Source: a virus. From it: a stretch of DNA of 21,372 nucleotides. This document shows positions 93-21,372 of this stretch, piece by piece (position 1 is the first letter of the stretch; each line of letters begins with the position of its first letter). The stretch is from positions 1 through 21,372 of IMG/VR virus record IMGVR_UViG_3300045010_000101; one strand, 5' to 3'. The translations under genes and the position numbers were made by a program. Under the pieces are notes generated by a model, which worked only from the letters and a program-made list of their open reading frames with translations, was not told the DNA's origin and did no database searches.

Positions 93-2620
93 ACCCAGCA
101 CAACCGCCAGAAGGAATACTAGATCCCAAACAACCTTATTGGCCTGCTGATAAGGTTGGTGAGATTACTTGGTTGCGTCTAAAGGGCAAACTAACTGGCA
201 GAAGAGTAGAAGGTATAAGTGAAAACTTTACATCTTATGTAGACCTTGGTGATGCTGATGCTGATAGGTTGATTGAAAACATTAAGAAGTATGGTAAGTA
301 TCCACAGGTCAATCAGAATGATAGGTATGGTGGTGCATATAATAATGAAGCATATCAGAAGTGGTTGGTAGAAGAGTTCCTTGAGAAACCATTTAGGGAA
401 GAAACAAATAAAAAGATTGAAGAAGCAGAGATTGAAAGAAGAGTAAAGGAGATACAAGAAAACAAAAAAAAGATTGCTAATACTTTAAACAATAAACCAC
501 AACCAGAGGTTCAACCACAGGATAAACTAATCCCAGCAGATCCTTTAGACATTCCTGATCCCTGGGAAGGTAGCGAAACGGTTCCAAATATTATTACTCC
601 TGTCACTACCAAACCAACATTACTGTTGCCACCAGCAAAAGATCTTAAAGATCTTGAACCTGAGGTAAAGAAATCACAGCAGAAGCAGAAGAGACAAAAG
701 AAAGAAAAATCTTTCATCATACCAGAAACTCTTAGTCCTGAAATACAAACTGCGATCAGGAATTTTTCTGGTAATCTTGATAGTGTTCGTAGGCAAATGT
801 CTAAACAGACACGAATACTGCAACGCAGAGAAAGAAACTATAGAAAAATTATAAGTGGATTGGAGTCCACTAAGTTTTTACTTGGGCAACAAGTAGAAAA
901 CTCTAGAGAGGCGTTGGATGATTTAGAAACGCAACAAAGAATTACCAAAGCATATAGTGCTCCTATTGGACCACAACCAACAGAGTCACCTACACCATGG
1001 GCATCAGCGGGTCCAGAAGATGCAGGTAATAAACAAGGATTCACACCACGATTACCTGCGGAGAAATTATCTCAGGGTGGATTTCTTAATACTCCATATC
1101 CAGCAAGGTTTTCTGAAGGAACCGCTGGATATCCAGACACACCTATTCCAGGATTTGCTGAGGGTGGAATAAACACGGCATCTAACTTCGGTAAAAAGAT
1201 GCTACAACCTGGCATCTATGATAATCCAACAATAGGAACTCTACCACCAAACTCTGCTGTTGTTCCGTTGAACAGGAACTTTGGTAAAAAGTTGATGGGT
1301 CAATATGATACTCAACAATATATTCAAGCACTTGGCGAGACAATGTTCAAACCAATCAATGCTTTGCTTGGTGGTGCTCTGGTTACATTAGGAGATATTC
1401 TTAGAAACCTTGGACCTTTTGCTGGATATTTTAATTTGGGATTGAAATCTTTATTTGGATCTTTATCTGGTTTGTTGAAACTTCCTGTAAACATAATATT
1501 AGATTTGTTAGGTGGTCCAGCATATACAGGAACTCAAGTTGATAATGAAGAAACAAAATCTTTTTATGCTTCCTGGAAAGCTTACATGGACAAAAATAAT
1601 TTGTTTTTTCCTGGTGGTGGTTTTGCTCCTGGAGCTCCTGGAGGTGGTGGAGATGCTGGCGCAGGTGAGGGACAAGATTCTGGAGGACCAGAGGCAGAAT
1701 GGATGGGGGGATTACAATATGCACCACCTTCCAATCCTTTCGAAGATACTGATGGTCAAGAAACTGGTATTGATATTTCACTAAAAGGTAAAGGTACAAA
1801 TGGTTATGGTCAAGGATTGACGATACGAAATCCTATTGATAATTTGTATTACTTTTCTAAAGTTCCAAAAGGATTTCAAAATGCTGGCGGTCCAACGAGA
1901 GGGATTCAGGGAACACCGAGAAGAGTTAGGAAAGGAACAGGACCAGGTGGATTTGGTCATTGGGCAACATATTATATCAAAGACAACGATGGCACTTTTT
2001 ATGAATTAATGATAGGTCACTTGGATAGACCAGCTCCAACTTGGAATGATACTGGAAGCGGTGTTAAATTAAATAAAGGAGTGAAGATAGGAGTTCAGGG
2101 CGCTAGTGGATCATCGGTTGGTAATACGCCAGATGGAACTTATGATCACATGACAACTCACGTCAACTCTCCTTATAGAAGAAATCCAGCAAAATCTGGA
2201 CAACTTTTAATACAGTGGGCAAAAGAATTAGATGCTTATAAATCACTAACTACGCCTCGGCAACCACCGATCGCTGGACTAGAAGTTGGTGGTGAAATAA
2301 AAGCAGGAAAAATTAGTAACTTATCTAATACTTTCACTGATATATTCCACAGCAACAGCAAGCAACCTGTTATAAGCACACCTATAAAATCTATAAGTAC
2401 ACCAACTGGTGCTTCTCCTCTACCAAAAGTTCAAAGAATTACAACAACTCCTATTGCAACATCAACAAAAACAAAACCAAAGGTGTATAACATACAAGCA
2501 CCACAGACAGGTCCATCTATTCAAATGATTCCAACACCTACATTTAAACCACAATTTATCATGATTGATATACCAACAAATGATATTTTGGAATCAAATG
2601 AGATTAGGAGGATGATGTGA
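89..2620 (+). CDS. Large virion (tail/hub) protein with degenerate M23 peptidase-like domain
   Basis: 843 aa, starting at the ATGA overlap with the upstream gene. Order of parts: charged, probably coiled-coil N-terminal half (about residues 90-135 and 186-290); a Gly/Pro segment with FAEGG and the tape-measure-like stretch SAVVPL (389-394); a hydrophobic helical block (about 411-481, with LGPFAGYF and LLGGP); a Gly-rich linker (about 510-535); then an M23 (lysostaphin-like) peptidase-like region at about 555-705. In the last region GIDIS (from 560) matches the metal-ligand Asp motif, MIGHLD (641-646) matches the YAHL motif, and GVQGASGSSVG precedes DHMTTHVN (686-693). The first zinc-ligand His before GIDI is replaced, and the usual HxH is HxxxH, so activity is doubtful. 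The C-terminus is Pro/Thr-rich. Shared motifs with the next two genes suggest paralogy. Likely a tail-interior or hub component acting on the host wall. Confidence 0.72.
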   Translation: MNPAQPPEGILDPKQPYWPADKVGEITWLRLKGKLTGRRVEGISENFTSYVDLGDADADRLIENIKKYGKYPQVNQNDRYGGAYNNEAYQKWLVEEFLEKPFREETNKKIEEAEIERRVKEIQENKKKIANTLNNKPQPEVQPQDKLIPADPLDIPDPWEGSETVPNIITPVTTKPTLLLPPAKDLKDLEPEVKKSQQKQKRQKKEKSFIIPETLSPEIQTAIRNFSGNLDSVRRQMSKQTRILQRRERNYRKIISGLESTKFLLGQQVENSREALDDLETQQRITKAYSAPIGPQPTESPTPWASAGPEDAGNKQGFTPRLPAEKLSQGGFLNTPYPARFSEGTAGYPDTPIPGFAEGGINTASNFGKKMLQPGIYDNPTIGTLPPNSAVVPLNRNFGKKLMGQYDTQQYIQALGETMFKPINALLGGALVTLGDILRNLGPFAGYFNLGLKSLFGSLSGLLKLPVNIILDLLGGPAYTGTQVDNEETKSFYASWKAYMDKNNLFFPGGGFAPGAPGGGGDAGAGEGQDSGGPEAEWMGGLQYAPPSNPFEDTDGQETGIDISLKGKGTNGYGQGLTIRNPIDNLYYFSKVPKGFQNAGGPTRGIQGTPRRVRKGTGPGGFGHWATYYIKDNDGTFYELMIGHLDRPAPTWNDTGSGVKLNKGVKIGVQGASGSSVGNTPDGTYDHMTTHVNSPYRRNPAKSGQLLIQWAKELDAYKSLTTPRQPPIAGLEVGGEIKAGKISNLSNTFTDIFHSNSKQPVISTPIKSISTPTGASPLPKVQRITTTPIATSTKTKPKVYNIQAPQTGPSIQMIPTPTFKPQFIMIDIPTNDILESNEIRRMM

Positions 2621-4878
2621 TGGTACAAACACTGAACGAATATATTTTTAATAAGGCAACTAACAAGAGACCTTCAGCATCTCCTGCTGATTCTTCGTCT
2701 AGTTTAATTGAATATGTTGTTAACAGAGTCATGAAGCGTAATGATTCTGGTCAATCATTTGAAGAGCAACTTGACAAAGCATTTCAAATGCTTGGTAAAA
2801 AAACTTCTGCTATCAAGAAAGAACAATTTAAGCAAATCAAAATTGCTACAACTTTATTAGAGAAGCAAGAGGATTCTCAGAAATTAATTACTGACATATT
2901 AAATCTTACTCAAGAAAAAACCATATTAGAAAAACAATTTTATGAAAGAATTTTAGAGAATCAAACACCACCAGAACCACCATCAGAACAACCACCAGAA
3001 CAAAGTGTTCCTGAAGAATTACCTGTTAAGGAAGAGTCAAAAGAATCGAAAGAACAAGCGTTACCAGAGACAGAAAAATTAGCATCTGGAGGGACTACGG
3101 AAATGTCACCACCAGCGCAAAAAAGCAAAAATTTAAATGAAAGAGATAAGCAAATCAAATTCGCAGATGTTATACAGTTGCAACCAAAAGCTTCTGGAAT
3201 TGTTGCTGTATCTATACTTAAAGAATTTTTATCTGCTCTCGGTCCTCTTGCTGGATTCTTTAAACCATATGTAAAAAACATAGCGACTCCATTTGCTATT
3301 GCAATGGGAGTCAGTCAATCCATTATTAGTAACTTATTGGGTGGTCCAGTACAAGCAGGAGAATTCAAATTAAAAGAATATCAAAAAGATTTTGGGAAAA
3401 CTTGGAGTAAGTTTTTGAACGACGATAACTTTATTTCATTGTTTATTGATAGAACAGTTGATAAACTAACTGGAGAAGTAATTGGAGGATTTGTGCCAGC
3501 TAATTGGAAAGATGATCCAGAATTTACAGCAGAACTAAATCGAGTAGCACAAAAATTTAACATCAACGCTAATGATCTTCTCGCTGTAATGTTAATTGAA
3601 ACTGCAGGAACATTGAATCCATCTATAAGAAATCAAGATGGTAGTGGCGCCGTTGGATTGATTCAGTTTCTGCCAATAACAGCAACAGCACTTGGGACAA
3701 CTACTGATAATCTTGCTAAGATGACAAGAGTACAGCAAATGAAATATGTTGAAAAATATTTGCAGTACTGGAAGCTTCCCCAAGGTGCTACTGCAGGTCA
3801 TTTATATACAGCAGTATATTTGCCCGCATACATCAATAAAGATGTTCTCTCAGTAAGAGGTGAGGCAAATTACGAGCAAAACCGTGGTCTGGATTACAAT
3901 AATGATGGTAAAATTACCAGGAGTGATCTAGACGCACATGTAAATAATGCAAAGAAACAATACAAATTGGAGAAAGGGGATGATATAGGTGGCAATAAAT
4001 TACCTATGATGCCATATATGTTAATTGGTTCTAAATCAGGTTATGATGTAAACATTCAAGGACATGATGTAACTATGCATGGTGCCGAAGTAGTTGTTCC
4101 ATTTGGAAATGGTTTTCAAGTATTCCCTGTAATGAACAGAAGATATAATATTATAGAAGATCCTGTTGGTGTTATTGATAGATGGAGACAGATTGCACAA
4201 GGATCTAATTCAAAATTAAGTTCCTTTGTTTCTGGAGGCACCGCTGATTTTTGGAAAATAGCTGCCCTTGCATCAAAAGAAGACAGTTTAAATCCTCAAG
4301 GACAGGCAGATGTTGCACAAGCATTATATAATCGTGCAGCAATTGGTTCTTATCCTGGGGGGAGATCTATTGGTGCAATTATAACAGCACCAGGGCAATT
4401 TGAACCAACTTTTCATAACACTGAATCCTGGGCAGCAATTTGTGATAGAAAATCTGCGATTGTAGCTGCTGGCAATGCACAGAAAGTTGATATGGCAGTA
4501 AGGTCTATTACAAATTCATCTTTACAAAAAGAGGCACAGAAATTTGTTGGGGGAAGAACAGATTTTATGGGGGAAACTCAGAAGAAACATATGAAACCCG
4601 GAGATGTAACTAGAGGACGAGGATATAATTTTCATGGTTGGTTTTATGATGCTAAGCTTCCTAAACCAGCACCTGTGCCTAAAGTTGTTTCTGCTCAAAC
4701 TGTTAGTACCGTTGCTGGGTCAAGTAATAAACCAAAAATTATTGTCAACCAAGTAGGTGGTGAATCGTCGCCATCATTTATACAGCAGGTGCAACAGACC
4801 ATAACAAGATTGATACCAGTTCCTGTATTTAATTCTCAAAGATTGAGAACAGAATTAAATATGAAACGCACCAAATAA
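2620..4878 (+). CDS. Large virion protein with SLT transglycosylase, EF-hand loop and SleB-like hydrolase domains
   Basis: 752 aa from ATG 2620, which shares one base with the previous stop (TGATG). AGGAGG at 2606-2611 lies 8 bases upstream, so this ATG is better placed than the GTG at 2617. The N-terminal 150 residues are charged, then Pro/Glu-rich (PPEPPSEQPPEQ). LGPLAGFF and LLGGP repeat the hydrophobic block of the upstream protein. Residues about 318-420 look like a lytic transglycosylase (SLT) domain: catalytic-type Glu327 in LIETAG, then GAVGLIQFLP from 343. Directly after comes a canonical calcium loop DYNNDGKITRSD (425-436). AEVVVPF (489-495) is a tape-measure-like motif. Residues about 545-665 resemble SleB/CwlJ-type wall hydrolases: SKED (Glu554), DVAQALYNRAA, APGQFEP. 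The protein would cleave peptidoglycan at two kinds of bond during entry. Domain calls are by eye; SLT is the more certain. Confidence 0.8.
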   Translation: MVQTLNEYIFNKATNKRPSASPADSSSSLIEYVVNRVMKRNDSGQSFEEQLDKAFQMLGKKTSAIKKEQFKQIKIATTLLEKQEDSQKLITDILNLTQEKTILEKQFYERILENQTPPEPPSEQPPEQSVPEELPVKEESKESKEQALPETEKLASGGTTEMSPPAQKSKNLNERDKQIKFADVIQLQPKASGIVAVSILKEFLSALGPLAGFFKPYVKNIATPFAIAMGVSQSIISNLLGGPVQAGEFKLKEYQKDFGKTWSKFLNDDNFISLFIDRTVDKLTGEVIGGFVPANWKDDPEFTAELNRVAQKFNINANDLLAVMLIETAGTLNPSIRNQDGSGAVGLIQFLPITATALGTTTDNLAKMTRVQQMKYVEKYLQYWKLPQGATAGHLYTAVYLPAYINKDVLSVRGEANYEQNRGLDYNNDGKITRSDLDAHVNNAKKQYKLEKGDDIGGNKLPMMPYMLIGSKSGYDVNIQGHDVTMHGAEVVVPFGNGFQVFPVMNRRYNIIEDPVGVIDRWRQIAQGSNSKLSSFVSGGTADFWKIAALASKEDSLNPQGQADVAQALYNRAAIGSYPGGRSIGAIITAPGQFEPTFHNTESWAAICDRKSAIVAAGNAQKVDMAVRSITNSSLQKEAQKFVGGRTDFMGETQKKHMKPGDVTRGRGYNFHGWFYDAKLPKPAPVPKVVSAQTVSTVAGSSNKPKIIVNQVGGESSPSFIQQVQQTITRLIPVPVFNSQRLRTELNMKRTK

Positions 4879-4903: not shown

Positions 4904-7456
4904 ATGGCAGAGAGTAGCTTAACGGGATTTCTATTAAAACAAGCATTTAAATCTCGTGATGAAGCGAAAGCCGAAAAAGCGAGACAAGATAAAGTAGTTG
5001 AAAGTGATAAGAAAATAGACGATAAAGATCGTAAGGGTTTGTTCCGCAAAGCATTCACGAAGAATGTATTGAGTGGATTGTTTGGTGGAAAGAGTGCAAC
5101 GGGTGGCGGTAGTTCTACTGCTATTGGCGCTATGCTTGGTGGTGGTAAAAAGAAGAAGCAAAAACAACCCAAAGATGGTGGAGGAAAATCATCAGGGGGA
5201 AAAGCAAAAGGATTAGAAAAGATCCTGCTCATTGGTTTCGGATCTCTAGCAGCAGATACTACTACTATCGGTGGAGGACTTGCTGCTCTCACTGAGATTA
5301 TGAATTCGCAACTGAATGTTGAAAGCGATATATCATCTAACATTCAAGGTATTAATGCCATACTTGCTGATCAACTAGAAGTTCAGACATCATTCCTTGA
5401 TGCTATAGGACTTGGTGGTGGTCTTGGTGGTGGAGGAGGTGGTGAAGGTGGATTATCTAGTTTATTTGGGGGCGCTGGAGCAGGTTCAACTACAAATGAA
5501 TCTTCTCTTACTGGATTATTGCTTGAGCAATTCAATAAACTCAAAGATTTAGCAATGAGTTTTGGTGGTGGTGCTGCCCTGCAGGCTGCCCGTCAGGCAG
5601 GTATGAAAGGTCTTGCTCGGGCAGGGGCTGCTGCAGCACCTGCTGCTTCTGTACTAGGAGTTGGTGCATTGCTCAGTGCTGGTGGTGAAGGCATGTTTCA
5701 GCTTGGCAAGACGGGAGACCAGTCATTGAAAGATAGAAGTAAATTGATAAAAGAAAAGGAAGCACGAGGAGAAAATACTTTCTTAGATAAGACATTACAA
5801 TATGGGCAGACAGGTCTTGGAGAAATAGGAAAAACAGTAGGTGTTGCTGCTGATGTAGGTGGAGCACCAGTGAGAATGCTTGGTGAATTAATTGCTAATC
5901 CTTTCTTAAATGAGAAGCAGAAGAAAGAGCAGGCAATGAATTTGGCAAAGTATGACACTCGTATCAGAGAACATGCTCGTGGTTGGATGAATCGTATTGA
6001 CTTCTTAAATGTTATTTCTGATGAAAAGGGTGGGTTTGGAAATATCTACGGTAATCAAGCTGCTACTAAAGAAATGGCAGGCAAGATGGCAGCAGGTGGT
6101 AGTAAGGCAATGATAGGCGAGGCAGGTAAAGAGGCAGTTGTTCCTCTACACTCTGCAGATTCACCAGCAAAATCCAAGATAGGAATGGATCCTTCTATGC
6201 AAGCATCAGCTGGATCAATGCTTGCAGTTACTGATCAGTTCATCAAATCTATGGGTCCACTTGGAGGTTCTGTATCTCAAGCGTTGGGTTCTGATATCAG
6301 TAATCTTGCTAAAACATTTGGTATGTCACAGACGCTTCCTAATCTTTCTCTAGGTGGTGATAAGTTTAGAGAAGATACTACTGCTAAAAAAGATCGTGAA
6401 AAGTTTTTGAAAGAATTGATTGCAGGATCTTTAGAAGCATTGGGTGCTAAATCAAAACCACAATCACAATCACAACCTGAGAGTCCATCAATAAAACCAA
6501 CCTTAAATAAACCTTCTCCTCCAGAAACAAGAAATCCAGTGTCTAATCCAGATCCTAATTCACCTAATCCACCTTCAAATGGAAGCAATGGAAAAGCAAT
6601 GGGTGCTCGATATACTGATCCCGGAAGTCAACCGGGTGCTGTTATTCCTGATTTAAGTAAAAAAGAAGCAAAAAACATGGGGTTGGGTAATAAAAAAGAT
6701 AATCAAAAATATATAGAATTCCAACCAGGGTCAAAATTACGTGATAAGTATCATATACTTCTTAATGCTGCTAATGGTTCATATGAAGTTTGGGAAAAAC
6801 CAGGCATATTTAATTGGGCGCCTAAGAGAATATTTCTTGGACAAAAACAAAATTCTAACGTTGTAGAGAACAGTGCAATAGCAGAAGAAGCTCATAATTC
6901 AGTCAAAAAGTTTATGATAGATAACATGCCAAAAACTGGACAAGCTTTAAAATGGTTATCTTCAGATGATATACTAGGAGGATATGGCGGACCAAATAAT
7001 GAGAAAGGAGGATCTGTTAAATCATTTCAACAAGGTGGCAAGGTAGTTCAAAAGCCATGGTGGGATTTCTTGGGTTGGGTAACTGGATTACAAGAAGTTC
7101 AGAAAGGAACAACTGGAATCTATTCAAATTCTCCAGCGGGAAGAATTGCTGAGGCATCAGCGCAGAGAAATAGAATGATGAAAGAACTTGGTTATGAAAG
7201 TGGTGGCATCCTGACTGGAGTAAAAGCATCAGCATCAACACCAAAAGTAGCACCAGTTTCATATGCACCTATGGCAACAGCAGAAATAGAATCAACTGAC
7301 ATCGGTGCTATTGTAAATATAATAGGTTCTCAAACACAACAAGCAATACCAGTCATGTCAGATAATAAAGGTCCAACAACATCAGATTACGTAGCGGCAC
7401 CTACTGGTGGCGGTTTGGCATTTACTGTATTATCATCAAGTCAGTGGGGTGGATAA
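4904..7456 (+). CDS. Large Gly-rich tail protein with tape-measure-like motif
   Basis: 850 aa, with a strong ribosome site AAGGAAGGA at 4888-4896. The N-terminus is charged, followed by a Lys-rich stretch, hydrophobic segments and a Gly run (about residues 168-180). ESSLTGFLLKQ at residues 3-13 recurs as ESSLTGLLLEQ at about 199-209, an internal duplication. An Ala-rich hydrophobic helix region spans about 220-265. GGSKAMIGEAGKEAVVPL (about 398-415) is the motif typical of phage tape-measure proteins (usually GEAGPEAVVPL). MGPLGG follows near 450. Residues about 510-570 are a Pro/Ser/Asn-rich linker, and QQGGK appears again in the C-terminal part. No enzymatic domain was recognised. It belongs with the two genes upstream and leads into the hub genes, so a role in the tail tube interior or hub is likely. 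Which of the three, if any, sets tail length cannot be told from sequence alone. Confidence 0.7.
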   Translation: MAESSLTGFLLKQAFKSRDEAKAEKARQDKVVESDKKIDDKDRKGLFRKAFTKNVLSGLFGGKSATGGGSSTAIGAMLGGGKKKKQKQPKDGGGKSSGGKAKGLEKILLIGFGSLAADTTTIGGGLAALTEIMNSQLNVESDISSNIQGINAILADQLEVQTSFLDAIGLGGGLGGGGGGEGGLSSLFGGAGAGSTTNESSLTGLLLEQFNKLKDLAMSFGGGAALQAARQAGMKGLARAGAAAAPAASVLGVGALLSAGGEGMFQLGKTGDQSLKDRSKLIKEKEARGENTFLDKTLQYGQTGLGEIGKTVGVAADVGGAPVRMLGELIANPFLNEKQKKEQAMNLAKYDTRIREHARGWMNRIDFLNVISDEKGGFGNIYGNQAATKEMAGKMAAGGSKAMIGEAGKEAVVPLHSADSPAKSKIGMDPSMQASAGSMLAVTDQFIKSMGPLGGSVSQALGSDISNLAKTFGMSQTLPNLSLGGDKFREDTTAKKDREKFLKELIAGSLEALGAKSKPQSQSQPESPSIKPTLNKPSPPETRNPVSNPDPNSPNPPSNGSNGKAMGARYTDPGSQPGAVIPDLSKKEAKNMGLGNKKDNQKYIEFQPGSKLRDKYHILLNAANGSYEVWEKPGIFNWAPKRIFLGQKQNSNVVENSAIAEEAHNSVKKFMIDNMPKTGQALKWLSSDDILGGYGGPNNEKGGSVKSFQQGGKVVQKPWWDFLGWVTGLQEVQKGTTGIYSNSPAGRIAEASAQRNRMMKELGYESGGILTGVKASASTPKVAPVSYAPMATAEIESTDIGAIVNIIGSQTQQAIPVMSDNKGPTTSDYVAAPTGGGLAFTVLSSSQWGG

Positions 7457-13939: not shown

Positions 13940-14012
13940 GCTGGTTTAGCTATCTGGTGAAAGCACCCGACTCATAATCGGACACAGGTGGGATCGTTCC
14001 CCACAACCAGCA
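13940..14012 (+). tRNA. tRNA with CAU anticodon (Ile2 or elongator Met)
   Basis: Seven-base acceptor stem GCTGGTT (13940-13946) with AACCAGC (14005-14011) and A as discriminator; CCA is not encoded. The D-stem pairs 49-51 with 62-64. The anticodon stem has a 7-base loop CTCATAA giving anticodon CAT (13973-13975). The outermost anticodon-stem pair is C-A. The T-stem is GTGGG/CCCAC. The T-loop reads ATCGTTC, where T54 and A58 of the normal TTCRANY are swapped to A54 and T58. The core CGACTCATAATCG resembles bacterial tRNA-Ile2, whose C34 is changed to lysidine to read AUA; elongator Met cannot be excluded. It starts one base after the stop of the 62-aa gene. Confidence 0.85.
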
Positions 14013-14013
14013 C

Positions 14014-14042
14014 TTGACAATCAAGGCATCGCTTGTTATGAT
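14014..14042 (+). promoter_or_regulatory. Sigma-70-type promoter (TTGACA, 17 bp, TATGAT)
   Basis: TTGACA (14014-14019) and TATGAT (14037-14042) are spaced by 17 bases and fill the short gap between two tRNA genes. The expected start near 14049 is only about 6 bases before the Leu tRNA. It could drive this tRNA and the downstream 88-aa and cpeT genes. Short inverted repeats, CAATCA (14018-14023) with TGATTG (14039-14044), overlap both boxes. Confidence 0.78.
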
Positions 14043-14054
14043 TGTTCTCTGTTT

Positions 14055-14127
14055 GGGAGTGTAGCCCAGCGGAAGAGGCAAACGACTTAAAATCGTTCAA
14101 GGGTGGGTTCAAATCCCACCACTCCTA
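14055..14127 (+). tRNA. tRNA with UAA anticodon (Leu), short variable arm
   Basis: Acceptor GGGAGTG (14055-14061) pairs with CACTCCT (14120-14126), with one G-T wobble at the end; discriminator A at 14127; no CCA. The D-stem is GCC/GGC, the anticodon stem AACGA/TCGTT, and the loop CTTAAAA gives anticodon TAA (14088-14090), reading UUA. The T-stem is GTGGG/CCCAC with a standard TTCAAAT loop. The variable region is only five bases (CAAGG), whereas leucine tRNAs normally carry a long variable arm. All stems pair well, so it looks functional. Confidence 0.88.
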
Positions 14128-14130
14128 TCT

Positions 14131-14153
14131 CTCACTAAATATATTGTAGTGGG
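14131..14153 (+). promoter_or_regulatory. Hairpin just before the 88-aa gene, with CTAAATA late-promoter-like box in it
   Basis: CTCACTA (14131-14137) pairs with TAGTGGG (14147-14153) around a 9-base loop, between the Leu tRNA and the ATG at 14160. The right arm covers the only G-rich stretch that could serve as ribosome site, so the hairpin could limit translation, or mark the 3' processing site of the tRNA. CTAAATA (14135-14141) is one change from the ATAAATA late box; weak evidence. Confidence 0.4.
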
Positions 14154-14159
14154 AATATT

Positions 14160-14426
14160 ATGAAATACACACTCTCTCAAGCATATGTTTTTTATATGGG
14201 TGAGGTTGTTCGTATGTATTTTGTCCAAGGTCTTCCATATACATTTGATCAATTACCTCAAATTATACAAGACCATCCTGCTGTTCAAACAGAAGCACTT
14301 CAACATCGTGACTATGATGATGAAGATATGTTAAAAAATTCTAATTATCTAATAATGGAAGAAATGCACCCTCTAATGTTTGAAGTAGATATCGAAAATC
14401 CAGAATTATTGCCAAAAGATGATTGA
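14160..14426 (+). CDS. Protein of unknown function, 88 aa, translationally coupled to cpeT
   Basis: I do not recognise this protein. It starts with MKYTLSQAYVFYMGEVVRMY, a probable helix with aromatic residues, and has an acidic C-terminal half (DYDDEDM, EVDIENPELLPKDD). No membrane segment or signal peptide is clear. The ribosome site is weak (GTGGGA at 14150) and partly inside a hairpin. Its last 8 bases overlap the start of the cpeT-like gene, so the two are coupled and may act together. It follows the Leu tRNA by 32 bases and is probably on the same transcript. Confidence 0.65.
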   Translation: MKYTLSQAYVFYMGEVVRMYFVQGLPYTFDQLPQIIQDHPAVQTEALQHRDYDDEDMLKNSNYLIMEEMHPLMFEVDIENPELLPKDD

Positions 14427-14886
14427 AGAATTTTTTCTTTATTTTGAAGGCACATTTAATAACTGTATGCAAGCAATGTCGCATCCTACTAAGTTTGCGA
14501 TGATTGAATTACTTCATAAAAAACTTGATAATAACCGTTTTCATTGCATCCAACAGTATTATGTTGACAAAGTTCCATATCGAAACAGTATTATTGAAGT
14601 AGTTTCCCATGACTCTCACTTAATTCTCAAATTTTTCAAAAATGAGGGATTGACATACTTGACTGGATGCGATGTAATAATGGAGAAGATGGGTTCTGAG
14701 TTTATCGGCAAAAATCTTTGTAATGAATGTTTTATAAAATGGCAAGATAAACAGACCCGCCTTCAAGCTACCAGTATTCTTGGGAATAACTACTATCATG
14801 TAATTGATCAAGGATACGATATAAACACTGGCGAGCAAATTTGGGGATCTTACAATGGTCCTTTTGAGTTCGTCAAATTGCCCTAA
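14419..14886 (+). CDS. cpeT: CpeT/CpcT-type phycobiliprotein lyase
   Basis: 155 aa; ATG at 14419 overlaps the end of the 88-aa gene by 8 bases. The pattern of the CpeT/CpcT family is present in order: FEGTFNNCMQAMSHPTKFAM (family: G-x-F-x-N-x-x-Q-A), FHCIQQYY, VPYRNSIIEV, TGCDVIMEK, F-x-G-x-x-C, and the C-terminal VIDQGYDINTGEQIWGS with YNGPFEF. These lyases are single-domain beta barrels that attach phycoerythrobilin (or phycocyanobilin) to a Cys of phycobiliprotein beta subunits. T4-like cyanophages often carry a compact cpeT, thought to keep or alter light harvesting during infection. Length is shorter than typical host proteins, as usual for phage copies. The last codons lie inside the Thr tRNA acceptor stem. 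Confidence 0.85.
   Translation: MIEEFFLYFEGTFNNCMQAMSHPTKFAMIELLHKKLDNNRFHCIQQYYVDKVPYRNSIIEVVSHDSHLILKFFKNEGLTYLTGCDVIMEKMGSEFIGKNLCNECFIKWQDKQTRLQATSILGNNYYHVIDQGYDINTGEQIWGSYNGPFEFVKLP
14650..14678 (+). promoter_or_regulatory. Possible promoter inside cpeT (TTGACA, 17 bp, TGTAAT)
   Basis: TTGACA (14650-14655) and TGTAAT (14673-14678), one change from TATAAT, are spaced by 17 bases within cpeT, about 200 bases before the Thr tRNA, which otherwise has no promoter of its own. Being inside a coding region, it may be chance. Confidence 0.35.
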
Positions 14887-14953
14887 TAGCTCAGTTGGAT
14901 AGAGCAACGGTTTTGTAAACCGTAGGTCGTTGGTTCAAGTCCGACTTGGGGCT
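14880..14953 (+). tRNA. tRNA-Thr (UGU)
   Basis: Acceptor GCCCTAA (14880-14886) pairs with TTGGGGC (14946-14952) including one T-G wobble; discriminator T; no CCA encoded. The D-arm is GCTC/GAGC, the anticodon stem ACGGT/ACCGT, and the loop TTTGTAA gives anticodon TGT (14914-14916), reading ACA. The T-arm is GTTGG/CCGAC with loop TTCAAGT. The first seven bases are also the last codons and stop (TAA 14884-14886) of cpeT, so processing of the tRNA would cut the cpeT message at its end. Confidence 0.95.
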
Positions 14954-15049: not shown

Positions 15050-18000
15050 ATGCCATTAACGAGATTAGATAATCTACTTTCAAGTAAAACTGGTAAGTAT
15101 CTTTATGTTTCTCCTGACGATTTTAATGCGACAGACGCTTTAGATAATAGAGGAAATTCACCAACTAGACCATTTTTATCGATTCAGAGAGCTTTTCTTG
15201 AAGTAGCAAGATTTTCGTATTTACCTGGCATTGATAATGATCGTTTTGATCAATTCACAATCATGCTGTCTCCCGGTGTACACCATATTGACAACAGACC
15301 AGGCATTGAAAACGTAGATGATCTTCCTGTATTTCAGTATAATCAGGCGCTTGGTGAGTGGGAAACAAACAGTAATGTGAGTTTTGATTTAAGCGATCCT
15401 AACAACATTCTTTACAAGTTTAATGGTCGTGATGGTGGTGCTACCATTCCTAGAGGTACTTCACTCGTAGGTATGGACTTGCGTAGAACTCAATTGCGCC
15501 CATTGTATGTTCCTGATCCTGCAGATAAAGATGTTCCTCGTTGTTCGCTATTTAACGTAACTGGTGGTTGCTATTTTTGGCAATTCACTATTCAAGATGG
15601 AGATCTTTCTTCTAATTCTCCGTTATATGATGCAACTGCTGGTATAGGTAAGGTATACACTCAACCAAATGACACTGTTAATAAATTAATACCAGAATTC
15701 TCTCATCACAAAATTACTAACTTTGTATTTGCTGATAGACAAGATCTTGGTCTTCTCTACAGAAAGATTTCGCATGTTTTCAGTGATTATCAACCACCTA
15801 TCGATGACGTATTTGTAGAAGGAGAAACACAACCAATAACCGAATATTGGTCTTCTACAGTTAATTACTCTGCTGGCAATAAAGTTTTGTATAATGGTCA
15901 AGCATATTTGGCATCTACTAGTTCAATCAATTCTAGACCAAATGTGAATCCAAATAAATGGTCATTAATGATCATTCGCAGCAGGGAGTTTGATTTCAGA
16001 ATACAGGAAAATAGAATTGTTGGACCACTACAAGATGCTATTCGTCTTGAGGAAGTAAGAGTTGATGATTCAGTACCAGTTGGTATTACTACTCTTACTG
16101 TTCGTACAAAAATTAATCATGGATTTTTTCCTGGGCAATATGTTGCTATTACTAACAATGGTCTTAATGATACATTAAATGGAGTTTTCCAAGTAGCAAG
16201 TATTAGCGCAACAGATCCAAAAGTATTTACATATCGTGTATCTTCTACAGCAACTGGTCTAGGTCTTGTAAGCGGCACAACCTACACTGCAGCATCTTCA
16301 CCCCCTCTTGACACTAACTCTACCGTACAGGCGGAGGTAGATAGCGTAGAATCTGCATCTCCATACGTCTTTAACGTTTCAATTCGTTCAACCTGGGGTA
16401 TTTGTGGTATTTGGGCAAATGGTAGGAAAGCTAGTGGATTTAAATCCATGGTTATTGCTCAGTACACTGGTGTTTCTCTACAAAAAGACGATAGAGCATT
16501 CATTCGTTATGATGAGTTTAGCAACACTTGGAACCAAGCACCGTTAACCGATGCATTTGCAACTACTCCTTATCACATTAAGGGAGATGCATATTGGAAA
16601 GATGATTGGAGAAACTTCCACGTTAAGGCATCTGACGACTCCTTCATTCAGTGCGTTTCGATTTTTGCTGTAGGTTTTGCTGATCACTTCTTGATGGAAA
16701 GTGGTGGTGATATGTCAATCACCAACTCTAACTCCAACTTTGGTAATACTTCTCTACACGCTATTGGTTTTAAAGGATTTGCCTTTAACCAAGATAAAGG
16801 TGGATACATTACTGATATTATTCCACCAAAATTATTATCAACTCTGAATGTAAATAGAAAACAGTATTATACTTTTGATGTTCCTTTAATTAGAGGAACT
16901 TCGCTGAATCCTAACTCTACTAGATTATACCTTGGAACTGAAGATGCTCGCAATCCAGAAGATCGCCCAGCAGGTTCTATTGATGGATATAGATTGGGTG
17001 CAAAAAGAAATGAAAAGATTTTTGTAAAACTTGACGCATCTGCTTCTAAATCAGCAGATCTTATTCATTCTGGTTTTAAAAAATGGACTGCCTCACTTTC
17101 CACGTTAAATCCTATTGGTGTTGGATTTACTACTGAGTTTAATTTGAAGCAAGATGCTGCTAACTTAATTGATGCTAATAAGACATTCATTCAAGCGGAA
17201 GCATTTGGATATATTCTCGACAAATATCCAAATCTTCAAAATATTCCTTATGTAAATCCAAATATTACTTCTGAAACTGGACGCTATAGAGATGCTTCTA
17301 CATTAATTAAAGCGAACAGACAAGAAATTATTGATTATGCTTTCTCTAAAATACAAATCGCATTTCCTTCATTCGTTGTTCCTGGTGGAGGAAATGCTGA
17401 TGAAAAATGTAAGCGTGATATTGGATATATTGTAGACGCTATCGCTGACGATTTATACAGTGGTGGTAACTCCAATATGATTGATGCCACCAAAACATAT
17501 TTTAACTCTTCTGGTCAACTAATCAGCAATGGTCTTGCTGGAGAAGAAACTCAATCAATCTTTGCTTTCAATAGAGCAAAAGATTGGTGTAAGAAAGCAA
17601 TTTCAAACCTACTAACAAACACTTCTCTGTTAGATAACCCTGCTCTTTCTGCATCTGGTACTACGATTACTGTAACCACTGCAACGCCACATAATCTACA
17701 AGCAAATGATTTTGTAACAGTTGGTGGTGCTACACAAACTCAATTTAACGGTAGGTATCAAGTTCTTTCTGCTGGATTAACCTCAACTCAGTTTAGATAT
17801 ACTGTTACATCTGCTCCTAGTGTAGCAAATGCAACTGGAGCTGTCTATGTTTCTACTATCACAATCGATCCGTTAAATGATGATGCGAATGTAGGAAGAT
17901 TTAAGGATGCAAGTAAATTAATTACTTCAAACAGGCAAGAAATTATTGATAGAGCAGCTGCAGAAATTGCTGTTCAGTTTCCCGATTTCTATTATCCAGG

Positions 18001-21000
18001 TGATCCTCAAACTACATCAACTTCTAGATATAAAGATGCATATCGTTTAATTCAGCAAAATAAACAAGAAATTATTGATGGCGCTTATGCACAAATAATA
18101 ATTGATTTTCCATCTTTTGTAAATCCAAATGAAACTAAGTGCAAAAGAGATATTGAATATTTCATTGATGCAGTTTCTTTAGATGTTGTACAGGGTGGTG
18201 GTAACGTATATTCTCGTAAGTTTGTTCAGCAATATTTTGTAGATGCAAGTACTCCATTACCTAATGGTTTACTCGGAGAAGAAGGTCCATCTGTTTCTGC
18301 ATTTACTAAAGCTCGTAACCTAATGAAGGCAGCTCTTGCCAACCAACTTACAATTAAAGATCTTACCATTACTGCTGGTAAAGCAAACTATAATGGAACT
18401 GGTTTGACTATTGCAAACACAGATGCAGTATCTTGTGCTGATGTTCAATTAGCAATTGATACCCTTTCTTTCTTAATTACTTCAAGAATTGCTGCAGGTA
18501 ATCTTACAGGATTACCTGCAGAATCATTTGGGTCTTCGCCAGCAGGAGAAACTAAGTGTAAGCGAGATATTGCATATATTGTTGATTCGATTGCTCAGGA
18601 TATTTTCTGGGGTGGTAATGAATTTACGGTAGGTTCAGTTAGAGAGTATTTTACTCAAGCAGGTACACCAATTCCAAATGGTCTTGTTGGCGAAATTGCA
18701 CAATCTGTTGCTGCATTTAATAAAGCAAGAGAATGGTGTAAGCGAGCAATTACCAATCAACTTTACGCTAAGAATTTAAATATATCTACTGGACCTGCTG
18801 TTGCTAGTGGGTCAGGTGGAAATATTTCATATACGCAATCTGGAAATGGAGCAATTTGCATTGATGTTCAATCAACGGTAGATTCTTTGTTTTCTATTGT
18901 AACTAGTGTTATAAATGCTGGTAATATTAATGCGCTTCCAACAGTAGACAATGGCGATTGGGATTGTGCTAATGTAAGACGAACTATTGATACTTTAGTT
19001 AATATTATTAATAGTTCTCTTCTTGCTGGTAATTTAAATAATTTGCCAGTTAGAAATATTGGTCCATGGTCTCAAGTAAGTGATGCAAGTAAGTGTAAGC
19101 GTGATATTGGATATATTGTAGAAGCTATTACATCTGATTTGAAATTGGGTGGAAATATAAACACTATTAATGCCGCTGAATCATATTACACTGGTACTCA
19201 ATTAGATTATATTGAAAATGAAAAGTTAGAAACTCTTGATGCATATCGTTATGTAAGAGATTTGGCGATTTCTGCAATGAGAAATCATAACACCTACATT
19301 TCTAATGCATCTACAACTAACGGATCTTCGATTGTAACTATTCCAAGCACAGTTGGTCTTGCAATCGGCATGAAGGTTCGCAGCGTTGCAGCAATTCCAA
19401 CGTCTTCATCAAGTACAATTACATATACAACAAATATTCCTACCACTGCATATATTAAAAAAATTGGTGATGGCTTAAACGGTCTCGCTACAAATAAAAT
19501 TCAACTTGGTACTCAAGGAAGCAAATTTGATATTGGATCAAATGTTAATGCTACCGCTACTTCCACTGGAGTTAATTTATATGTTGAATTAACTCAAGGA
19601 GTTTGGAGTACAGAATTAGCTCCATCAACTGATTTTAGTATAACTCAAGATTATAATTACCTTACTCCTGGAGATATTGCAACTGGTGCTCCTGGTGGAG
19701 AATGTGCTAGTGTTGCAAGCACGCTCGTTAATTATTATCAAATTTTATCTACTGTTATTAACAGTGGAGTTGGGTCGGTTCCTAGAGTTGCATCAACTTT
19801 AAATACATCTGGTCTTGCACAAAGAGCTACTCTATTTTCTCTCACTGAGTTTGATAGCAATGGAATTCCCACAACTAACCCACACCAGCTTGAAACAGGA
19901 ACACCAATTCGTCTTGTACCAAGAGCAAAAAGTGGGGTTAATGTAGACAAGAGAGTAATTCGTTTACCAAAAGGATTTGATACAAATACAATTTACTATG
20001 TAATTGCTCCTGGCAGAAAAACCGATCCTTATGATTATTCTAATATTGGATTATTTAATGGTTCTAATCAACAGAATTTATTACTCGCAACCAGTTCAGA
20101 AAATGCTGCTGCAGGTATTTACATCTATTCGTCCGAAACAGATGGAATTGATTCAAATGTAGAAATTGATGTCTATCAATACATTCTTGATTTAAACTAT
20201 GACTTACATCAGTATCAAACAAAAATTGTTGTGGGATCTTCTTCAATTCTTGAAACTGACAGACCACACGTATTTGATAAACCATCTACTAATGTAACTC
20301 CACAATTAGTGTTTTTCCGTATAGGATCTGATATTGTAGGATCTTCACTACCTACACTATCATCAACATTTGGTGGCGCAACTATTTCTAGCAAAACACT
20401 TTTTTATGTTCGTTACGTTAGTAGCACAAGATTTACAATTCACGAAACATTTGCAAATGCTCGTGATAATATCAATCCAATCTCTTTCCAACCAGGAAGC
20501 AGTGCAGTATTCTACACATTTGCTGATAAGCGTAGATCACCACTTAGATACGATCCTAAAATTGGCGTCTCACCCACAGATGGTTGCTGGTATATAGAAA
20601 CTCTGTCTACTGGAAACACTATTATTCCTAGAATAAAGCAGTCAGATTATGCTGGAAGATTGAGAACAACTGATTCTTATTTTGAAAGAATTGAAGACAA
20701 CAGAACAAAAGAGGATAGAATCTATCGTCTGCGTTATGTAGTACCTAAAAATCTTAAGACAGTTCGTGATCCTATCAGAGGATTTGTACTTAAAATTCGC
20801 ACAGATGAAAAGAGAAGATTACTACCACAAAAAATTCTTCTCAAACCAACTTCAACAGGTGCAGATACAGCAACTCTGCTTGCTCCTGTATCAGGAGAGC
20901 GTCTTGGGTTATCCTTACAAGAGCAAATTACGCTCAATCCAAACTTCTCTTCTACATACGATCCATCACCATTTGGTAATCCAAAAAGATTGGAAACAAA

Positions 21001-21372
21001 TGCAAAGGTAGCATTTACTGTTCAATCTGCTAGAAAAGTTTTGCTCAATGGCAAAAATTATCTACAGTTGAATGTTTTTGATATTGGTATTGATGCGGAA
21101 GCTTACAAAACCAAGATCCTTACAACTGTTAAAATTTCTTCGCCAGAAGGAGGTAATGGATTTTTTGTAGCAAGCGTAATAAATTCAAACAACACCAACA
21201 GAGTAACATGGGCAGGTAATTGTTCTGGCACTGCTTATGTGCACGGATACTTTGCATATGAAAACGAATACTATATGATTCTGAAGGATTTCACTGGAAA
21301 TTCTTTCATTGATTATTATGCAGCAACACCTACCGTTTTCACCCAAGGTTCTGTAACTGCAACTTTGCTTGA
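15050..21372 (+). CDS. Giant modular virion structural protein (3' end outside window)
   Basis: Open from ATG 15050 to the window edge without a stop: 2107 codons, frame read by eye throughout. The start follows a late promoter; the ribosome site is weak (CGGGT, 15037-15041). The N-terminus MPLTRLDNLLSSKTGKYLYV continues with SPTRPFLSIQRAFLEVARFS, which I associate with very large virion proteins of T4-like cyanophages. A carbohydrate-binding-like module (YWSSTVNYSAGNKVLYNGQA...KWSL) lies at about 265-308, similar in spacing to CBM5/12 modules. Two copies of an FNG-x-(Y/F)-x-V domain lie at about 344-411 and 867-941. Four copies of KCKRDI-x-Y-(I/F)-(V/I)-(D/E)-A lie at 786, 1030, 1169 and 1348, interleaved with four copies of a Cys-x-x-V repeat (1129, 1270, 1306, 1552). 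Probably a tail fibre or baseplate-periphery protein that contacts the host surface; exact role unknown. Confidence 0.85.
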   Translation, partial: MPLTRLDNLLSSKTGKYLYVSPDDFNATDALDNRGNSPTRPFLSIQRAFLEVARFSYLPGIDNDRFDQFTIMLSPGVHHIDNRPGIENVDDLPVFQYNQALGEWETNSNVSFDLSDPNNILYKFNGRDGGATIPRGTSLVGMDLRRTQLRPLYVPDPADKDVPRCSLFNVTGGCYFWQFTIQDGDLSSNSPLYDATAGIGKVYTQPNDTVNKLIPEFSHHKITNFVFADRQDLGLLYRKISHVFSDYQPPIDDVFVEGETQPITEYWSSTVNYSAGNKVLYNGQAYLASTSSINSRPNVNPNKWSLMIIRSREFDFRIQENRIVGPLQDAIRLEEVRVDDSVPVGITTLTVRTKINHGFFPGQYVAITNNGLNDTLNGVFQVASISATDPKVFTYRVSSTATGLGLVSGTTYTAASSPPLDTNSTVQAEVDSVESASPYVFNVSIRSTWGICGIWANGRKASGFKSMVIAQYTGVSLQKDDRAFIRYDEFSNTWNQAPLTDAFATTPYHIKGDAYWKDDWRNFHVKASDDSFIQCVSIFAVGFADHFLMESGGDMSITNSNSNFGNTSLHAIGFKGFAFNQDKGGYITDIIPPKLLSTLNVNRKQYYTFDVPLIRGTSLNPNSTRLYLGTEDARNPEDRPAGSIDGYRLGAKRNEKIFVKLDASASKSADLIHSGFKKWTASLSTLNPIGVGFTTEFNLKQDAANLIDANKTFIQAEAFGYILDKYPNLQNIPYVNPNITSETGRYRDASTLIKANRQEIIDYAFSKIQIAFPSFVVPGGGNADEKCKRDIGYIVDAIADDLYSGGNSNMIDATKTYFNSSGQLISNGLAGEETQSIFAFNRAKDWCKKAISNLLTNTSLLDNPALSASGTTITVTTATPHNLQANDFVTVGGATQTQFNGRYQVLSAGLTSTQFRYTVTSAPSVANATGAVYVSTITIDPLNDDANVGRFKDASKLITSNRQEIIDRAAAEIAVQFPDFYYPGDPQTTSTSRYKDAYRLIQQNKQEIIDGAYAQIIIDFPSFVNPNETKCKRDIEYFIDAVSLDVVQGGGNVYSRKFVQQYFVDASTPLPNGLLGEEGPSVSAFTKARNLMKAALANQLTIKDLTITAGKANYNGTGLTIANTDAVSCADVQLAIDTLSFLITSRIAAGNLTGLPAESFGSSPAGETKCKRDIAYIVDSIAQDIFWGGNEFTVGSVREYFTQAGTPIPNGLVGEIAQSVAAFNKAREWCKRAITNQLYAKNLNISTGPAVASGSGGNISYTQSGNGAICIDVQSTVDSLFSIVTSVINAGNINALPTVDNGDWDCANVRRTIDTLVNIINSSLLAGNLNNLPVRNIGPWSQVSDASKCKRDIGYIVEAITSDLKLGGNINTINAAESYYTGTQLDYIENEKLETLDAYRYVRDLAISAMRNHNTYISNASTTNGSSIVTIPSTVGLAIGMKVRSVAAIPTSSSSTITYTTNIPTTAYIKKIGDGLNGLATNKIQLGTQGSKFDIGSNVNATATSTGVNLYVELTQGVWSTELAPSTDFSITQDYNYLTPGDIATGAPGGECASVASTLVNYYQILSTVINSGVGSVPRVASTLNTSGLAQRATLFSLTEFDSNGIPTTNPHQLETGTPIRLVPRAKSGVNVDKRVIRLPKGFDTNTIYYVIAPGRKTDPYDYSNIGLFNGSNQQNLLLATSSENAAAGIYIYSSETDGIDSNVEIDVYQYILDLNYDLHQYQTKIVVGSSSILETDRPHVFDKPSTNVTPQLVFFRIGSDIVGSSLPTLSSTFGGATISSKTLFYVRYVSSTRFTIHETFANARDNINPISFQPGSSAVFYTFADKRRSPLRYDPKIGVSPTDGCWYIETLSTGNTIIPRIKQSDYAGRLRTTDSYFERIEDNRTKEDRIYRLRYVVPKNLKTVRDPIRGFVLKIRTDEKRRLLPQKILLKPTSTGADTATLLAPVSGERLGLSLQEQITLNPNFSSTYDPSPFGNPKRLETNAKVAFTVQSARKVLLNGKNYLQLNVFDIGIDAEAYKTKILTTVKISSPEGGNGFFVASVINSNNTNRVTWAGNCSGTAYVHGYFAYENEYYMILKDFTGNSFIDYYAATPTVFTQGSVTATLL
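17276..19310 (+). repeat. Four diverged copies of a KCKRDI-type helical module in the giant protein
   Basis: Copies centre on KCKRDIGYIVDAIADDL (17405), KCKRDIEYFIDAVSLDV (18137), KCKRDIAYIVDSIAQDI (18554) and KCKRDIGYIVEAITSDL (19091). Copies 1-3 also share GGN or GGGN, then a YF segment, P/S-NGL-x-GE, and AF-x-(K/R)A. Copies 1 and 2 are preceded by R-(Y/F)-(K/R)-DA-x-x-LI-x-x-N-(R/K)-QEIID, which has an extra copy at about 17891. Cores are 139 to 244 residues apart. Confidence 0.88.
18430..19800 (+). repeat. Second repeat family in the giant protein (Cys-x-x-V, ...AGN...LP)
   Basis: SCADVQLAIDTLSFLITSRI (18431), ICIDVQSTVDSLFSIVTSVI (18854), DCANVRRTIDTLVNIINSSL (18962) and a weaker ECASVASTLVNYYQILSTVI (19700). 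The first three continue as (N/L/A)-AGN-(L/I)-x-x-LP; the fourth continues as NSGVGSVP. The copies alternate with the KCKRDI modules, as if a composite unit had been duplicated and eroded. Confidence 0.8.

Follow-up and report, generated by a model that had tools for sequence, protein, structure and literature searches.

Bacteriophage T4 opens the cell wall at entry with the tail lysozyme of gp5, and the locus described here raises the question of how a T4-like cyanophage with a different gp5 gets through the wall of its host. Kyanoviruses are among the commonest phages of the ocean, and we have not found their wall opening at entry described in the open-licence literature. The locus is carried by a 21,372-base virus record, IMGVR_UViG_3300045010_000101 (the whole stretch analysed, hereafter 'the window'), and is the baseplate-hub locus of a T4-like cyanophage of the Kyanoviridae type. 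Here, we examine two large neighbouring proteins, P0001 and P0002, together with the corresponding proteins of relatives, whose fetched loci are given L numbers. We think it quite probable, mechanism included, that P0001 and P0002 are large internal tail proteins (hub or tape-measure-like) and that the wall-opening enzymes reside in them instead of in a gp5 lysozyme.

The open reading frames of P0001 (843 aa; positions 89-2620), the first slot protein and a putative large internal tail or hub protein, and of P0002 (752 aa; 2620-4878), the second, overlap by a single base (TGATG). They are followed by P0003 (850 aa; 4904-7456), the third slot protein; P0004 (7460-8866), a hub protein of the T4-GC 15 family (phrog_350, 7e-96); P0005 (9092-11791), a gp5-type protein; and P0006 (11804-13609), a separate DUF2345/gp5-type tip protein (PF10106 at 2.8e-6; phrog_4540 at 1.7e-9). 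All of these genes, and the domains described below within them, are on the plus strand. P0004 is named gp27-like from its gene position; its S-PM2 and S-SM1 orthologues carry the T4-GC 15 label, and that family is a core virion structural protein of cyanophages (PMC3037559). The near-identical contig L008 has gp48, gp4, the tail tube, gp26 and gp51 upstream, and the combined gene order is the same as in Kyanoviridae hub loci such as those of S-PM2 and S-H9-2 (gp48, gp2, gp4, tail tube, gp26, gp51, large proteins, T4-GC 15 protein, gp5 protein, gp5-tip protein, then CpeT and tRNAs). No cultured phage was matched when the first 12 kb were compared by megablast with 50,697 phage records. After the hub genes, positions 13940-14953 contain three tRNA genes (Met-CAT, Leu-TAA and Thr-TGT) and a CpeT-like gene (14419-14886). 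Next comes a tail-fibre protein (15050-21370) that exceeds 2100 aa and is open at the window end; it is internally repetitive and matches several PHROG fibre families.

In P0005, profile searches recognise Gp5_OB only, an OB domain with 34% identity to T4 gp5, and find no lysozyme domain, with T4 gp5 itself matching Phage_lysozyme at 1.3e-12 as a positive control; nor was Phage_lysozyme found anywhere in the window. An earlier sequence-only reading of this DNA had gp5 without a lysozyme domain, which is borne out, and the hidden gp5 lysozyme that it named as counter-evidence did not appear in the profile search. Six other kyanovirus gp5 proteins (from five isolates and L010) likewise have no recognisable lysozyme domain, and the 'tail lysozyme' label on kyanovirus gp5 records is therefore without domain support in those tested. 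The same reading held that wall opening had moved to large hub-side proteins: wall-cutting domains do lie there, beside a gp5 that has no lysozyme, although a move out of gp5 does not follow, as a lysozyme may never have been present in the gp5 of this lineage. As in S-PM2-type phages, two genes divide the functions of gp5 between them: P0005 has the OB domain and P0006 the DUF2345 tip. Residues 720-860 of P0005 also match repeats of wedge and head proteins.

P0002 has two glycan-cutting folds. Residues 299-447 (3514-3960) can be confirmed by homology as an SLT lytic transglycosylase domain. The region with its neighbours scores 21.6 bits against PF01464, over the cut-off of 21.3, with 21.3 bits for the isolated domain and 18.8 (under the cut-off) in a whole-protein scan; the assignment is settled by independent matches to PDB 9udh ('lytic transglycosidase'; residues 299-441 at 4.6e-23) and 9k2v ('Internal protein'; 3.3e-11). 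Matches to the SLT region occur in 270 phage records. Glu327 (codon at 3598), which aligns with Glu in 9udh and 9k2v and is invariant in five SLT-bearing sequences, is likely to be the catalytic acid, as expected for the family.

Residues 545-675 of P0002 (4252-4644) are filed as a SleB/Hydrolase_2-like domain, an assignment supported by similarity to PF07486 (24.2 bits, under the curated cut-off of 27; E 7e-7 within the window) and by homologues in Synechococcus phages. The closest of these is in ACG-2014g (2e-15), with weaker ones in S-SCSM2R ('cell wall hydrolase SleB') and 7B11-B ('endolysin'), and the slot protein of ACG-2014j is over the PF07486 cut-off at 27.9 bits; a PDB search with the SleB-like profile returned nothing credible. 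Glu554 (codon at 4279) is invariant across six sequences and is the likely catalytic acid, by a presumed equivalence to the SleB catalytic Glu based on the motif. Between the two enzymes lies a region with an EVVVP motif (residues 455-520; 3982-4179) that is kept in relatives with differing enzymes, and the P0002 orthologues in L004-L007 share 55-57% identity with it overall.

The candidate enzyme of P0001, a cassette at residues 535-718 (1691-2242), is more divergent. It has no credible match in Pfam, PHROG, NCBIfam or PDB, and none to PF01551 even at E<=10; PDB matches to a thioredoxin-domain protein and pyruvate carboxylase are spurious, and a Nocardia plasmid match (E 0.4) was taken as chance. 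Against a local profile built from nine M23 domains of kyanovirus slots the cassette scores 9.5 bits, compared with -1.7 +/- 1.6 (SD) for shuffled sequences (2000 made, 1859 scored), one of the 1859 scoring equally high. The register is as expected, with IGHL (H644) aligned to YxHL and GVKIGVQGASG to the glycine turn of M23. Profile-profile comparison with seven M23 domains is weak (E 0.079), and the M23 protein of S-SRM01 gives the best local match, across GVKIGVQGASG...DGTYDHM (E 0.003 for that pair). The H(x)nD zinc motif is absent; in its stead is E558-T-G-I-D562, placed by eye, outside the aligned stretch, where M23 has HxGxD, so that Asp is kept and His is changed to Glu. HxH is absent too, YDHMTTH at 685-691 having His in another spacing, and the candidate site residues are E558, D562, H644 and H687/H691. 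AlphaFold models of the two enzyme regions are poor, with mean pLDDT values of 30.6 and 42.8. Because the profile likeness is weak, the signature residues are changed and HxH is missing, we label the cassette M23-like and do not assign it to M23. The resemblance itself being weak, stronger support comes from position, as a true M23 domain (E 1e-17 to 1e-24) occupies the place of the window's cassette in L006, L007, L010 and L011. The three hydrolase-like domains of the sequence-only reading, and the Pfam families it named for them, thus fare unequally: SLT is over its PF01464 cut-off with the 9udh match besides, the SleB-like domain falls short of Hydrolase_2, and the M23-like region goes unmatched by PF01551.

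Besides copies of the same virus, the only relatives of the cassette that were found are in L019 and L020 (near-identical contigs). The L019 copy is 87% identical, with dN 0.095 and dS 1.80 (the latter near saturation), and the cassette is under purifying selection, as are the SLT and SleB-like domains. It is possible, though we do not favour it, that the cassette is a degenerate, non-catalytic M23 fold whose role is to bind peptidoglycan or to control the enzymes next to it, in the way that EnvC and NlpD regulate amidases. Glu558 stands in place of the first zinc His, and either Tyr685 or Thr689, depending on the register, in place of the first His of HxH; regulatory roles are known for degenerate M23 folds (PMC9662197). 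Yet Glu is able to ligate zinc, glycan and peptide cutters are otherwise paired in the slot, and purifying selection is strong, with E558, D562, H644, H687 and H691 all kept in L019, a conservation that would also suit binding. That the cassette is instead a new domain, unrelated to M23 and merely sitting at its position, we regard as unlikely. A local profile score well over the shuffles and in register, the S-SRM01 M23 protein as best local match, and the replacement of M23 at exactly the same junctions all speak against it, and have to be set against the lack of any Pfam, PHROG, NCBIfam or PDB match, the profile-profile E value, and the absence of a homologue from the 50,697 phage records and from a pattern scan of 84,980 genomes (which reaches close relatives only). 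The reading that we prefer is that the cassette most probably does the peptide cutting for which its orthologues have M23, a predicted function for which there is also an indirect reason, since it is the sole peptide-class candidate in the window.

P0001 and P0002 share a hydrophobic paralogous segment (E 5e-8), and a profile iterated from the P0002 copy to convergence locates this carrier module at residues 413-505 of P0001 (1325-1603), 176-275 of P0002 (3145-3444) and 428-503 of P0003 (6185-6412). It is also present in both slot proteins of S-PM2, S-H9-2, S-RIM44, Sf-CH3 and S-CAM1. Searched against all open reading frames of 80 aa or more from the fetched loci, the profile finds 38, all of them slot proteins, and no other at E<=10; one of the 38 (L016:13505-16048) was absent from the profile building. 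Where an enzyme is recognised, it lies about 25-110 residues past the module. No copy of the module was found in slot proteins from S-SM1, S-RIM2, S-MbCM6, ACG-2014d, ACG-2014g, S-SSM7 or P-TIM68; it is therefore a mark of some kyanoviruses only, whereas the slot with its enzymes is more widespread. The third paralogue, P0003, has a GEAGKEAVVPL motif besides the carrier module; a family profile search recognised no enzyme domain in it, and it is perhaps the tape measure proper.

As judged from alignments, the slot between gp51 and the gp27-like protein is a place where two or three big proteins are kept and enzymes are swapped on a conserved scaffold. Relative to L010, P0001 is 82-90% identical over residues 121-420 and only 27-33% over the cassette (541-720), which is of another family; L019 presents the reverse pattern, with 83-92% over residues 541-720 and mostly 34-56% over 121-480. 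For P0002 and L010, identity is 53-85% over residues 1-300, 18-34% in the enzyme regions, 42% between these (481-540) and 78% over the last 32 residues, and both L010 and L011 have GH19 and Phage_lysozyme in place of the window's SLT and SleB-like domains. The N-terminal conserved domain of P0001 (residues 1-147; 89-529; phrog_11440 at 3.9e-19) matches slot-A proteins of S-CAM1 (4e-39) and S-H9-2 (8.5e-13), occurs without the remainder of the protein in L013-L017, and is probably a docking domain. In two contigs (L012:10001-12988 and L014:10001-13210) a single gene joins the P0001 N-terminus to the carrier/SLT part of P0002.

The sequence-only reading regarded two glycan-cutting folds plus a peptidase-like fold as an unusual entry kit, a view that a survey of the slot does not sustain: in the isolates and contigs surveyed such enzymes are regularly found there, the usual combination being one that cuts glycan and one that cuts peptide. 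Phage_lysozyme2 with M23 is found in S-PM2, Sf-CH3 and S-RIM44, glucosaminidase with VanY in S-SCSM1, glucosaminidase with M15 in S-RIM2, and Phage_lysozyme with M15 (just under its cut-off) in S-SM1. Single enzymes were recognised in S-H9-2 and S-SRM01 (M23), S-MbCM6 (SLT), S-CAM1 (glucosaminidase, under its cut-off), ACG-2014d (VanY), S-CAM7 (Amidase_5/CHAP), ACG-2014j (Hydrolase_2), and ACG-2014g and S-SCSM2R (SleB-like, by tblastn), and none in S-SSM7 and P-TIM68. The contigs have SLT_3 and M23 (L015), M23 and a SleB-like domain under its cut-off (L016), M23 and an SLT-like domain recognised by homology to P0002 (L012), M23, SLT and SleB-like domains (L006 and L007), or M23, GH19 and lysozyme (L010 and L011), and the close relatives L004, L006, L007 and L019 likewise have two glycan-cutting folds in one protein. 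Every surveyed genome with at least two recognised enzymes has both the glycan-cutting and the peptide-cutting class; with a hand-chosen sample, many related genomes and classes assigned from family names, this pairing is a pattern and not a tested law. Residues 66-218 of the first slot protein of S-PM2 (S-PM2d207; L027:3129-6629) match PF01129 ART (25.1 bits, over the cut-off of 22.3), and it is possible that this one hub protein combines a tail lysozyme with an injected ADP-ribosyltransferase modifier like T4 Alt.

The window is a metagenomic contig, and the presence of its slot proteins in the particle is inferred from the virions of relatives. S-SCSM1 ORF213 and ORF214 (loci L041 and L042) lie exactly in the slot, after gp51 and before the hub protein. 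Both were detected in virions by mass spectrometry, and their authors considered them unlikely to be structural (PMC9602691). In S-CREM2, ORF208 and ORF209 adjoin the central-spike genes and gave 73 and 71 unique peptides from virions, and were called endolysins, possibly capsid-packaged (PMC10665884). S-CREM2 has the longest reported cyanophage tail (~418 nm), and its slot proteins are also very long, at ~1565 and ~1456 aa as calculated from the published coordinates (PMC10665884). Because of their position and the length of the scaffold, we read the S-SCSM1 and S-CREM2 proteins as tail proteins. That slot proteins are endolysins for release, or capsid-packaged enzymes, and not tail-borne entry enzymes, is an improbable alternative in spite of the opinion of both sets of authors that they are non-structural (PMC9602691, PMC10665884) and of some database annotations as endolysin, as it sits poorly with the length of the scaffold proteins (550-1560 aa), with their strictly syntenic place between hub genes, with the many peptides recovered from virions, and with the existence of paralogous scaffolds of which one copy (P0003) has no recognised enzyme.

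In the mechanism that we propose for P0001 and P0002, each consists of a scaffold, a hydrophobic carrier module, an enzyme cassette and a short C-terminal tail. They would sit inside the tube or hub and be expelled or exposed on contraction, so bringing the enzymes to the periplasm at entry. The SLT domain (through Glu327) and the SleB-like domain (through Glu554) would cut the glycan strands, and the P0001 cassette would cut, or at least bind, the peptides; with glycan cutters and a peptide-cutting cassette, the wall would be opened on both bond types. Recombination would exchange the cassettes while the scaffold stays. A bolder proposition is that kyanoviruses have a lysin slot of their own, driven by recombination, in which exchangeable enzyme cassettes are delivered by a common carrier module and obey a rule of one glycan and one peptide cutter, and that the P0001 cassette is in addition a new class of endopeptidase with an altered (Glu/Asp/His) metal site; taken as a whole, we hold this to be doubtful. 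The preferred model leads to the expectation of two complementary cutters between gp51 and the T4-GC 15 protein, swapped among lineages, and gives a new reading to proteins taken for endolysins or packaged enzymes in published proteomes. It also offers a set of enzymes (SLT, GH19, SleB-like, M23, glucosaminidase and VanY) that may act on cyanobacterial peptidoglycan.

Comparison with known systems shows what is shared and what is particular. Like the proposed enzymes of the window, T4 gp5 is a tail-borne wall opener acting at entry, and the window has a gp5 OB homologue; in T4, however, the lysozyme lies inside gp5, whereas here gp5 has none and the tip is a separate gene, P0006. The S-PM2 (S-PM2d207/208), S-SCSM1 (ORF213/214) and S-CREM2 (ORF208/209) proteins have the same gene position and proposed role, and some share the carrier module, but the slot enzymes of such isolates differ from those of the window (Phage_lysozyme2 with M23; glucosaminidase with VanY). 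We have not found the common slot, the carrier module or the exchange of enzyme families described in the open-licence literature, which is weak evidence of absence. Tail lysins with several activities are already known, also in a cyanophage: the hub protein gp15 of the Anabaena myophage A-1(L) has lysozyme, endoglucanase and peptidase domains, the last two of which were shown to lyse host cells (PMC10966104). It resembles the window in placing several wall-cutting domains in a cyanophage contractile tail, and differs in that the three are in a single hub protein of a non-T4 myophage, whereas the window has two large proteins beside a gp27-like hub, and in that the folds (SLT, SleB-like and M23-like here) are not the same. 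In the tape measure protein of mycobacteriophage TM4, motif 3 is likewise a hydrolase within a large internal tail protein, a peptidoglycan hydrolase that improves DNA entry (PMC1796659), although TM4 is a siphovirus with a single motif family and no slot with exchanged enzyme families. Together, the A-1(L) hub and the TM4 tape measure protein show that tail-borne wall cutters are workable.
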